Under the pieces are notes generated by a model. It had not been told where the DNA came from. It searched no databases and saw only the letters and a list, made by a program, of their open reading frames with translations. The position numbers and the translations under genes are program-made. A stretch of 29,359 nt of DNA from a virus, in the IMG/VR virus record IMGVR_UViG_3300035188_000314, positions 1 through 29,359 of that record; one strand, given 5' to 3'. Below, one piece after another: positions 495-29,359 of the stretch. How positions within the stretch are numbered: the first letter of the stretch is position 1; each line of letters opens with the position of its first letter.

Positions 495-1946
495 CTAGAG
501 CAGTTCTGATTCCATCTCGGCGAGCATCAGCTTGGCGCGAGCGATGGATGGGTCCACCCCTGTGCGCTTCGGAGCCAACTTCTCCGTGACGGTTTCAATC
601 ACCTCGACATCCTCTTCGGTCAGCGGTTGCGCTGACTTCAAGGACTCGATGGCTGAGATGAGCCGGTCGCCGTCTACGCCCATTCGGGACGCGACTTTGC
701 GAACGGAGGTCAAGCCCAGCGTCGCTGGGTAGGCGGGAGTCTGTCCTGCGGAGAGGACGCTCACCTCAAAGAGATTCACTTCGCGCAGCGTGCGCTCATC
801 CTCGTTCCACTCATCGCCGTTCTTTGGGATGGTGAAGCCGAAGGACATTCCCATCGCCAACGCCTCGTGCGTCAGCTTGGAGATGACGCCAGCGGCGTCT
901 GGGTCGGCTGGGTCAAGGCGAGCCTCAACCTTCAAGCCGCGCTCGTCTTCGGTCAGGGTAAGTCGGCCGCTCGCGGTCGTGGCGAGTGCGCGTGTCTCGT
1001 CGTGTCCAAAGAGGAAGGAGACAATCTTCTTGCCGTCAGCGACGCGCGAGAGCGTGCGACGGAAGGCGCCTGGAGCGATCACCTCGGTGAACGGAAGTCC
1101 AGCCGACGGTGCGCCAAAGAGCGCGGCGTAGCCGGTGAAGGTCTTCTGACCGTCTTCGTCTTCTCGAACGGTGAACTCGCCCATCGGAAGAGCGCGCGTC
1201 TCAAGTTCTTTCACGTCAAACCTCTCTTCTTCGGTCAGCGGCGCCAAGACGCCATCTGCCCATTCTAGGACGCGATCTGCGCCGTTCTCTGCTGTGGGAT
1301 CAACGCCCCACAGGTACGCGGCCACCGCGCCTGGTCCTGGGAAGTCTGGGTCGTCTGAGTTGCTGTTGCGCGGTACGCCTTCCCAGTCGCCACGGTGTCG
1401 CAGAATCCACGCGCGCATCCGCGTCACCTTGTCATCCTCGACTTGTCCAGCGCGCAGCTGCCGCGCCTCTTCAATCGTCTGGTCGGTCAGTCCGTCACCG
1501 GCATAGCCGTTGCGCTGGTAGGTCAGACCCTTCTCAGCGGCCTCTTGGATGTATTGCGGCACGTCAATCAGGATGCGCACTTGGTCATCTTCCTCGCCGC
1601 TATCGTCAGGCTGCCAGGCGTTGCAGTAGTAGGCGCCGCTCACGTAGTCATCCCACTTCTCGCAGTACGCCTTGTCGCCCTCAATCTTTGCTTCGTTGTA
1701 GAAGACGCAGTTGCCGCAGGCGCGGCCTTCTGGCACGTCAGGCGAGAGTGCAGGTCGGTAGTTATCTGGCAGGACGCGCGCGGCTGAATACTCGCCGCCC
1801 GGCTCAATGCCTTCGCCGAGTGAGACGGCAACCATCTGCGCGAGCGCATCTTCTTTGCTGTCGTGACAGCCGATGACCTCGCCGTCTTCCTTGACGGTCG
1901 CCCAGCCGTTGCAGTCTGCCGACTGGTCAGTGACGAAGTACGGCAT
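495..1946 (-). CDS. Prohead maturation protease with N-terminal HiPIP-like cysteine module
   Basis: The 483-residue serine protease should cleave capsid delta domains during head maturation. The C-terminal half (from about residue 252) is the S78/HK97 protease domain. It has GYAALFG, then EVIAPGAF, LFGHDETRALATTASG with the likely catalytic His (about 315), SFGF, and EVSVLSAGQTPAYPAT with the likely catalytic Ser (about 396). The family is usually about 200 residues, so half of this protein is extra. It comprises a short N-terminal module (MPYFVTDQSADCNGW), a four-cysteine segment at residues 77-108 (CGNC, YCEKW, YYCNAW), and an AWILRHRGDWEG / AVAAYLWG segment. The chosen start is ATG 1944-1946, which shares a base with the portal stop (TAATG). 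An upstream in-frame ATG at 1997 would overlap portal by 52 bases. Confidence 0.88.
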   Translation of the reverse strand: MPYFVTDQSADCNGWATVKEDGEVIGCHDSKEDALAQMVAVSLGEGIEPGGEYSAARVLPDNYRPALSPDVPEGRACGNCVFYNEAKIEGDKAYCEKWDDYVSGAYYCNAWQPDDSGEEDDQVRILIDVPQYIQEAAEKGLTYQRNGYAGDGLTDQTIEEARQLRAGQVEDDKVTRMRAWILRHRGDWEGVPRNSNSDDPDFPGPGAVAAYLWGVDPTAENGADRVLEWADGVLAPLTEEERFDVKELETRALPMGEFTVREDEDGQKTFTGYAALFGAPSAGLPFTEVIAPGAFRRTLSRVADGKKIVSFLFGHDETRALATTASGRLTLTEDERGLKVEARLDPADPDAAGVISKLTHEALAMGMSFGFTIPKNGDEWNEDERTLREVNLFEVSVLSAGQTPAYPATLGLTSVRKVASRMGVDGDRLISAIESLKSAQPLTEEDVEVIETVTEKLAPKRTGVDPSIARAKLMLAEMESELL

Positions 1947-3142
1947 TACTCTGTCGGCTCCGTGTCGCCAAGTGTGCCGATGTTCAGCGGCTTCCAAAAC
2001 TCTGTCCCACCATCCACTGGCGAGCGGTCTTCAAGGGACCGCACTTCGTTGACCGACAGGAACCCATTGTTCAGCGCGGTCGCGTAGGAGTTGTAGCGCT
2101 CCTGCGTCGTGGCGCGCAGCAAGCCGTCAAGCGTGAACTTCAAGAAGGTCTGCTCGGCTCCTGGCACGATGCGCTGGAACGACGCCTCAAGGCGCGCGAT
2201 CATTGGTCCGAGTCCGAGTCGCAGCCACTCAATGCCGATCAACTCGACCGACGCATAGGAGGTGTTGCCGCCTGGGTACTGCAGCATATGAAGCGGCACT
2301 CCGTAGATGCGAGCGATCGCTTCCACGCCGTAGTGCATCGTCTCCACGAGCTGCAAGTCGCTGATCTTTGCGCCGAGCTGTAGATAGTCTGCGCCGCCAG
2401 TTAGCACGGCCACTCGCCACGCCTTGTCCACACCACCGTGTCGGCGACCGAAGCCAGTGCGAAGTGCCTCTGCCTGATCCTGCGTCAGTTCGCCTGGAAC
2501 CTTGATCAGACCGCCGACGCTTGCGTTGTTCTCGTAGAACTTCGCGCTGAAGATTTGCGTCGCGCTTGCAAGTCCGAGCGTCACCTTGTGATGCTCGATC
2601 GGTGACAGTCCACGATGGTTCTCGCCAGTGGCGAAGAGCGGGATGTGAATGATCTCTGCGGTCGTCAGCGTGATCGCGCCTTCGGTTGTCTCGATGTAGT
2701 AAACAGGCTCGCCGAACTCGCCGCTCCTGATCTCCACCTTCTGCGGATCAAGGACGCGGGTCTCAATCACATTGTCGGATGAGTCCCTAAGCAGCAATAC
2801 GAACGCGTTTCCGTCTAGCAGAAGTGAGGTTGTCACGCGATGCTTGAACTCAAAGGATGTGAAGTTCGGATTGTTCGGAATCGGGAAGTCCATCCATCGC
2901 GGACGCGGACGGTAAGGTCGGCGCGTTCCGTCAATGCGGATGTAGGTGTCCCACGGAAGTCCAGCGATCGTGTCGGCGTAGAGCTTGACTGCGGCGTAGA
3001 CCGCGCCAATGCTCGTGGCATTCTCTTGGTTCACCAGCACGCCGGCTGCGCCGCTCTGTGCCTCCTGAGTGACCCACTGGCCGCCGATGAATCGTTCCTC
3101 TTGTGGCTGTTGGCGTCCGAGGACGCGATCAAGGATTCCCAT
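1946..3142 (-). CDS. Portal protein, HK97 family
   Basis: This 398-residue protein should form the dodecameric ring at the capsid vertex through which DNA enters and to which the neck attaches. It begins MGILDRVLG, and early residues include TSIGAVYAAVKLYADTIAGLPW, the conserved opening of HK97-type portals. Later come TTSLLLDGNAFVLL, IIHIPLFA, the stem region KFYENNASVGGLIKVPG, and YGVEAIARIYGVPLHML near the C-terminal third, all typical of the family. Its length is slightly below the usual 400-430. It starts 8 bases after terL ends and couples by TAATG to the protease. The order terL, portal, protease, capsid is the classic HK97 arrangement and supports the call. Confidence 0.93.
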   Translation of the reverse strand: MGILDRVLGRQQPQEERFIGGQWVTQEAQSGAAGVLVNQENATSIGAVYAAVKLYADTIAGLPWDTYIRIDGTRRPYRPRPRWMDFPIPNNPNFTSFEFKHRVTTSLLLDGNAFVLLLRDSSDNVIETRVLDPQKVEIRSGEFGEPVYYIETTEGAITLTTAEIIHIPLFATGENHRGLSPIEHHKVTLGLASATQIFSAKFYENNASVGGLIKVPGELTQDQAEALRTGFGRRHGGVDKAWRVAVLTGGADYLQLGAKISDLQLVETMHYGVEAIARIYGVPLHMLQYPGGNTSYASVELIGIEWLRLGLGPMIARLEASFQRIVPGAEQTFLKFTLDGLLRATTQERYNSYATALNNGFLSVNEVRSLEDRSPVDGGTEFWKPLNIGTLGDTEPTE

Positions 3143-28497: not shown

Positions 28498-29359
28498 TTA
28501 GACGTTGGCTGACTTGTACGACTTGACCGCTGAAGCCTGTGAAAGCCCAGTGGCGCCGCGCACCTGAACCTTGTAGGAGATGAGGCCGAGGTTCCACGCG
28601 AACTCGCGGGAGACTTCAACCTGCACGCCGCCTACGAGGACGGTGTAGATCTGTCCGAGGTCACCAAACAGGATTGCGCCTGCGGTGTCATCGGTCAGGT
28701 CAATGAGTGCTGCACTGTAGATCGGCGCTCCGAGGAGTCGATCTGGAGTGTTCGCATCGCCTGGTCGGAAGATTGGCTGTCCAGCCGTATCCACGAGACC
28801 AGTCACAACGCCGAGCGTTGTGTCGTTCATCAACCAACCAGCCTTTGGCGCGCGTCGGTACGCCTGGTTCACAGACGCCTTCAGCTTCGCAAGGTCGGTG
28901 AAGGTTGGGTTGATTGACACCGTGCCGGAGCCAGTTGCGCCAATCGTAGCCTGAGCCGCGACTGCCGTACCAGCAAATGCACCGTGAGCAACTGCGACTT
29001 CGGCGCCGCACTTGTCGGCGATCATCGCGGATAGGTCGAACGCCGCATCCGTTGCGAGTTCTTCCGTCACCTGAATGATCGTCGCGTACTTGACTGGTGT
29101 GAGGGACAGCGCGCTGAGCGTTCCGTCCGACTCGCCAATCGTGCCAGCCTCAGCAACCGATCCAGCGGTTCCAAGAGCCGTGACTCGTGGGAACTGGATG
29201 TTATTGCCGGTGCTTGCGCGAACCACAGTCACGATTGCTGGGTCAATGAATGGGTTGAACTGTGCCGCAACTACGTTCACGCGGTCAGCAATGGTGACTG
29301 GGTTGCCCAGGCCAGTGCTGCGTGTGACGTCGCGGTACTCGAACACCTGCACGCCGCCG
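28498..29359 (-). CDS. Major capsid protein, C-terminal part (continues at window start)
   Basis: This is the core of the HK97-type capsid protein; the N-terminal part is at 1-387. It carries STGLGNPVTIADRVNVVAAQ, QVTEELATDAAFDLSAMIAD, then GWLMNDTTLGVVTGLVDTAG, PDRLLGAPIYSA and LFGDLGQIYTVLVGGVQVEV, ending VRGATGLSQASAVKSYKSANV. These are the P-domain and A-domain patterns of the fold (flanking strand and helix, then WLMN, and FGD..Y near the end). The last 94 bases overlap the first 94 of the window, with two of four differences changing residues (VTR against VSR, QVF against QLF). The stop is TAA 28498-28500. Confidence 0.92.
   Translation of the reverse strand, partial: GGVQVFEYRDVTRSTGLGNPVTIADRVNVVAAQFNPFIDPAIVTVVRASTGNNIQFPRVTALGTAGSVAEAGTIGESDGTLSALSLTPVKYATIIQVTEELATDAAFDLSAMIADKCGAEVAVAHGAFAGTAVAAQATIGATGSGTVSINPTFTDLAKLKASVNQAYRRAPKAGWLMNDTTLGVVTGLVDTAGQPIFRPGDANTPDRLLGAPIYSAALIDLTDDTAGAILFGDLGQIYTVLVGGVQVEVSREFAWNLGLISYKVQVRGATGLSQASAVKSYKSANV
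29266..29359. repeat. Terminal overlap copy 2 (assembly closure)
   Basis: This 94-base end aligns with 1-94 at 90 of 94 positions, in the same capsid frame. See the first copy. Confidence 0.9.

Follow-up and report, generated by a model that had tools for sequence, protein, structure and literature searches.

The protease gene and its N-terminal modules

We analysed a window of 29,359 nucleotides, the whole of a virus contig (IMG/VR record IMGVR_UViG_3300035188_000314) whose phage is described as freshwater. One part of the major capsid gene lies at each end of the record (1-417 and 28498-29352, minus strand), from which we read the contig as a siphovirus genome of about 29.4 kb that is circularly permuted and probably complete. 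Genes for the small and large terminase are followed by those for portal, protease and capsid protein, and the protease ORF begins at position 1946 with an ATG that shares bases with the portal stop codon (TAATG). The relevant features are the following, where HiPIP stands for high-potential iron-sulfur protein.

1946-3142, minus strand: portal gene, directly upstream of the protease; the portal of this phage is without the cysteine module
495-1946, minus strand: gene for a prohead (capsid maturation) protease of the S78 family, HK97-type, 483 aa, with modules N-terminal to the protease domain
1791-1946, minus strand: module A, residues 1-52, faintly DUF2188-like, accompanying module B
1611-1778, minus strand: module B, four-cysteine domain with a predicted HiPIP fold, residues about 57-112
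1758-1760, minus strand: Tyr63 codon, possible equivalent of the conserved tyrosine of HiPIPs (Tyr in 61/64 relatives, Phe in 3/64)
1716-1718, minus strand: Cys77 codon, first of the C-x2-C pair, candidate ligand, invariant in relatives
1707-1709, minus strand: Cys80 codon, kept in relatives
1701-1703, minus strand: Phe82 codon, candidate cage aromatic
1662-1664, minus strand: Cys95 codon, kept in relatives
1653-1655, minus strand: Trp98 codon, candidate cage aromatic
1626-1628, minus strand: Tyr107 codon, candidate cage aromatic
1623-1625, minus strand: Cys108 codon, kept in relatives
1614-1616, minus strand: Trp111 codon, in the YYCNAW ending, putative cage aromatic
1242-1592, minus strand: module E, residues 119-235, helical phage module, phrog_2859
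720-1175, minus strand: S78 protease domain, residues 258-409 (PF04586, E 1.7e-30; TIGR01543)

The gene is assigned to the S78 prohead proteases by this domain and by its place between the portal and major capsid genes, and the best fold match of the protease was the T4 gp21 protease. The first-pass annotation, made from the letters alone, had reported Cys77, Cys80, Cys95 and Cys108 spaced as C-x2-C-x14-C-x12-C and ending in C-x6-V-x3-Y-Y-C-x2-W, which is exactly how the minus-strand ORF reads. It had also placed this cluster inside the protease; the cysteines are indeed part of the same protein, but they belong to an N-terminal extension that lies outside the protease fold. As it had further noted, Tyr106 stands where the HiPIP signature C-x(6,9)-[LIVM]-x(3)-G-[YW]-C-x(2)-[FYW] has Gly, so the module departs from that signature. 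We did not take this departure as disqualifying, nor the Gly as defining, because a characterised protein, Ferrovum HiPIP-41, has Cys at the same position (PMC10879576). The order and spacing of the cysteines are those of HiPIPs (the gaps in 1hpi are 2, 13 and 13), and the codon pattern for CxNCxF/Y occurs once in the window against 0.04 occurrences expected.

The adjoining module A has conserved residues of its own: C12, C27 and H28 are invariant in 19 aligned proteins, and might, to judge from this conservation, provide another site for a metal or a disulfide beside module B. The DNA encoding the CNGW ending of module A resembles that encoding the CNAW ending of module B, a likeness judged to be due to chance.

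Relatives of module B and their likeness to HiPIPs

A four-cysteine module on a capsid protease had been thought unusual, a view that is corrected by the finding of at least 584 relatives, which make it common in this group of environmental phages. From viral contigs we assembled 64 non-redundant copies of the module by whole-protein similarity, module alignment, a short-loop variant and a DNA pattern. Since copies selected by pattern bias the conservation of Cys, Phe/Tyr and Trp, these positions were rechecked on sets selected by similarity, either with the cysteines masked or with a profile built without the pattern-selected copies. All four cysteines and the Trp were kept in 61-63 unique relatives found with the query cysteines masked, and Val102 and Trp111 were likewise kept throughout the copies selected in that way. 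Among the 64 copies the gap between the second and third cysteines ranges from 7 to 18 and that between the third and fourth from 12 to 14. Only two named phages carried relatives: phiPsal1, a phage of Pontimonas salivibrio, and the Actinomycetia phage DSL-LC01, in which the match was weak. A search of 84,980 genomes of bacteria and archaea confirmed no relative; it used patterns tied to the protease-type motif, which distant forms may escape.

DSL-LC01 (OQ999401.1, 63803-68722; our locus L318) has three consecutive genes annotated as capsid maturation protease, the middle one of which matches HIPIP weakly close to its C-terminus. At two other loci (L205 and L305), where the neighbouring genes are unrelated, small proteins bear HiPIP-like motifs of the CGNC/CGDC type, singly or in pairs (GPTHCGNCEYY...CCNHW).

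When the whole protease was compared with Pfam, HIPIP was the only match besides S78 (residues 69-111, E 0.019, 15.7 bits). Alone, the module of the window scored 20.5 bits against HIPIP (PF01355), just below a 22-bit cut-off that is a curation threshold and not a defining property. HIPIP matches were found in 49 of the 64 copies, two relatives exceeding the cut-off (L181 with 23.4 bits and the record of L243 with 23.3 bits). DUF7140 was considered as a better family and rejected; it matches 16 of the 64 members, and in one individually viewed member it scored 17.7 (cut-off 27), below HIPIP. When a profile of all 64 copies was compared with all PDB sequences, HiPIPs occupied ranks 1-15 (E 3.5e-5 to 0.036) and the first non-HiPIP followed at 0.52; a profile built from 17 copies selected by similarity still ranked HiPIPs 1-8, with weaker E-values (0.0013-0.035). 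Profile-profile comparison by hhalign with a small set of PDB HiPIPs gave 95.9%. We also scored the copies with a profile made from HiPIPs only, and 32/64 outscored all 100 shuffles in which the cysteines were held fixed; the copy in the window was reached by 2/100 shuffles, and four copies by more than 5/100. Since most copies outscore their shuffles, the likeness to HiPIPs, as far as sequences can tell, exceeds the four cysteines alone, though it is modest for single sequences.

Predicted structure points in the same direction. An AlphaFold2 model of the module, built from 63 sequences, had a mean pLDDT of 94.6, and in a Foldseek comparison with the PDB, HiPIPs took ranks 1-11 (E 6.3e-3 to 0.13) as well as ranks 13-17; E-values as modest as 6e-3 are expected for a domain so small. 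With VIA-align, 14 HiPIP entries reached Z 6.0-7.8 across 54-60 residues, and although Z below 8 can reflect a merely common arrangement, here the HiPIPs span the whole domain and stand clear of unrelated folds. Below them came only small accessory subunits of glycyl radical enzymes (Z 2.2-4.3), which bind [4Fe-4S] clusters and have HiPIP-like folds (PMC12590467). The HiPIP fold is that of the predicted module model: a full-length model, made from only 19 sequences, was of low confidence (pLDDT below 50 in the module) with strands at the same places. High confidence in the module model thus depends on the diversity of its alignment, and AlphaFold may be reproducing HiPIPs already known to it. 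The first-pass annotation had named two outcomes that would speak against kinship, cysteines far apart in a predicted structure and a confident match to an unrelated zinc ribbon; the former did not emerge in the model, and there was none of the latter among the PDB profile and fold matches. Its suggestion of a HiPIP resemblance has thus been strengthened by profile, profile-profile and predicted-fold comparisons alike, and we regard it as very probable, on the predicted model, that module B has a HiPIP fold.

By their position in the sequence, aromatic residues corresponding to those of the HiPIP pocket, the conserved Tyr included, are also present. The upstream Tyr is found in 61/64 phage copies (Phe in the other 3), Phe/Tyr two residues after the second cysteine in all 64, Trp/Phe three residues after the third in 57/64 (Val in 7), Tyr/Trp immediately before the fourth in 53/64, and Trp three residues after the fourth in all 64. 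The search pattern itself accounts for part of the Phe/Tyr and Trp counts but has no bearing on the Tyr count. We take these positions to match Tyr19, Phe48, Phe66, Trp76 and Trp80 of C. vinosum HiPIP. A role for the aromatics and the conserved Tyr in the cluster pocket of HiPIPs is stated or cited in PMC10879576.

The closest known proteins are HiPIPs of family PF01355, above all its small members, those of Rhodocyclus tenuis (1isu) and Ectothiorhodospira vacuolata (1hpi) and PioC of Rhodopseudomonas palustris. They share with module B the order and spacing of the cysteines, the CxNC start, the C-x2-W end, the upstream Tyr, the aromatic pocket and the predicted fold, but differ from it in the signature Gly and in that this phage's copy misses the Pfam cut-off by a small margin. 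In the functional sense, HiPIPs are electron carriers that are exported and whose bound [4Fe-4S] cluster cycles between 3+ and 2+ at high potential. Module B is instead fused to phage head proteins and has no signal peptide, and its cluster is putative. Because it is internal to a 483-aa head protease or forms the end of portals, and is not a small periplasmic protein with an export signal, we file it as a HiPIP-fold domain and not as a HiPIP electron carrier.

Automatic annotation has already touched the module's family. Among its BFVD fold neighbours, Siphoviridae sp. ctrok7 and Synechococcus phage S-SRM01 have entries with HiPIP names or likeness, so some viral entries are HiPIP-named; further neighbours, compared by names only, were an XkdF, a portal and a prohead protease of uncultured Caudovirales. 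Open-access journal papers, searched by title and abstract, gave no account of a HiPIP-like phage head module, its exchange or its function.

Exchange of modules among head proteins

Fused proteins join module B to modules A, C (HAD-like), D (DUF5824, PF19141) and E in numerous arrangements that precede the S78 domain or, in one case, follow it; one protein (L243) has two copies of B. Module B also forms the C-terminus of a different, SPP1-like type of portal (L181-L199). At eight loci (L201, L202, L228, L230, L231, L240, L272 and L274) it is encoded by a separate gene for A+B or A+E+B, 118-239 aa long, between a short S78 protease gene and the major capsid gene. These small proteins (L202 772-1128, L274 from 2497, L201 and five further loci) are the unfused counterpart of the fused protein in the window.

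On a tree of S78 domains the presence of B changes at least nine times, and five of these changes are forced by well-supported branches. Furthermore, three sets of identical S78 domains bear different N-terminal modules. The DNA of L006 and L047 matches at 92% through the portal gene to the first codons of the protease, does not match over the N-terminal modules, and matches again at 95.6% from module E onward. Module B is, therefore, a mobile cassette that has recently been exchanged between otherwise near-identical phages. Despite this turnover, it is under strong purifying selection and is the most constrained of the four regions that we tested (pN/pS 0.20, compared to 0.25 for A, 0.51 for E and 0.54 for S78).

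The exchange hotspot extends from the portal stop codon to module E (L006 3022-3350 versus L047 2626-2996; also L012/L034/L044 and L031/L048); its flanks are 86-96% identical in DNA and the modules between them are unrelated. The HAD phosphatase-like module makes up about 130 N-terminal residues at L043-L061, L064 and L065-L071 and retains the motifs DIDGT, VSAR, K and DND. It replaces or joins the cysteine module on otherwise near-identical proteases, and is thus a putative enzyme fused to a capsid protease. The DUF5824 module is movable within the same proteases and occurs at several positions (L034, L038, L054 and others).

Possible cluster and role of module B

The best overall explanation, which we favour with some reserve, is that module B is a self-contained, accessory [4Fe-4S] domain of HiPIP fold that serves docking or packaging during procapsid assembly. 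The four cysteines of residues about 57-112 would hold one [4Fe-4S] cluster in the conserved aromatic pocket, supplied by the cluster-assembly machinery of the host, and the cluster would lock the small, helix-poor domain into shape. That the module holds such a cluster rather than another metal or none is likely, its type and occupancy being read from the resemblance to HiPIPs. The small subunits of glycyl radical enzymes offer a parallel, since in BSS beta and gamma and the small subunit of 4-hydroxyphenylacetate decarboxylase a HiPIP-like fold serves as an accessory subunit and not as an electron carrier (PMC12590467). Unlike module B, these belong to anaerobic enzymes and have no fusion or contextual tie to phage head proteins. 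BSS beta is prone to proteolysis when it is unable to bind its cluster (PMC12590467), which fits a need for the cluster in the folding of module B.

Within the head proteins, module B would be accessory to assembly and stand outside the catalytic unit. When HK97- and T4-like heads assemble, the procapsid encloses the protease, and the C-terminal part of the portal points inward. Module B on the protease or the portal C-terminus would thus end inside the procapsid, its third carrier being the small separate protein, and the module could act as a cluster-stabilised docking or packaging element and perhaps be removed when the protease matures the head. We favour such a module since its carriers are all minor components of the procapsid, but give a structural or docking role, as opposed to electron transfer, sensing or cargo, only about an even chance.

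The strongest rival is delivery of cargo. The N-terminal modules (HiPIP-fold, HAD phosphatase-like, DUF5824 and E) would be brought into the procapsid by the protease or portal and freed by proteolysis, to act in the infected cell or to exit with the DNA into the next host. Their rapid swapping on identical protease domains looks accessory rather than core, they occur in almost any order and also in separate genes, and the motifs of the HAD module are intact; yet the separate versions are located in the head operon, which is compatible with a role in assembly, and we consider cargo possible but rather improbable. The same modest expectation applies to the broader idea that head proteases and portals carry interchangeable modules, iron-sulfur and phosphatase-like ones among them, into the procapsid as cargo or as host-adapted assembly factors.

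It seems unlikely that the four cysteines instead bind a single zinc, or form two disulfides, and merely stabilise a small domain derived from or resembling HiPIPs. Zinc is a common occupant of Cys4 sites in phage proteins, the loop between the second and third cysteines varies in length, and two BFVD fold neighbours are labelled, by name only, zinc finger and zinc-ribbon. Zinc ribbons, however, have two knuckles and module B has a single C-x2-C pair; no zinc protein had a meaningful PDB score by profile or fold, the nearest matches below the HiPIPs being [4Fe-4S] subunits; and the aromatics of the HiPIP pocket, not needed for zinc, are kept. Least probable, and in our view very doubtful, is a redox or iron sensor that holds back protease activity until the time or the circumstances are right: module and protease are linked, clusters in HiPIP folds change redox state, and the HiPIP-fold subunit of BSS alters the activity of its partner (PMC12590467), but the module is missing from some proteases whose catalytic domains are identical, it also occurs on portals and in a separate gene, and its shuffled positions, including one C-terminal to S78, argue against a fixed allosteric link. 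Given its exchangeability, its separate-gene form and its presence on portals, module B does not appear to be a regulator wired to the protease active site.

If it does hold a cluster, the HiPIP-fold module would contain the first iron-sulfur cluster that we know of in capsid-assembly machinery, all those known to us in phage particles being at the tail tip. Lambda gpL and the RcGTA hub are phage structural proteins of that kind with a Cys4 iron-sulfur cluster (PMC7296036, citing Tam 2013); they are different proteins, of the tail tip and not the head, and the available part of that source makes no mention of a HiPIP fold. The exchange of cassettes on identical protease domains amounts to a natural experiment on module function, and the separate A+B protein, being small and expressible, lends itself to direct testing. 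With a HiPIP-fold domain on the head protease and the portal, capsid assembly would be bound up with the host's redox state and its supply of clusters.
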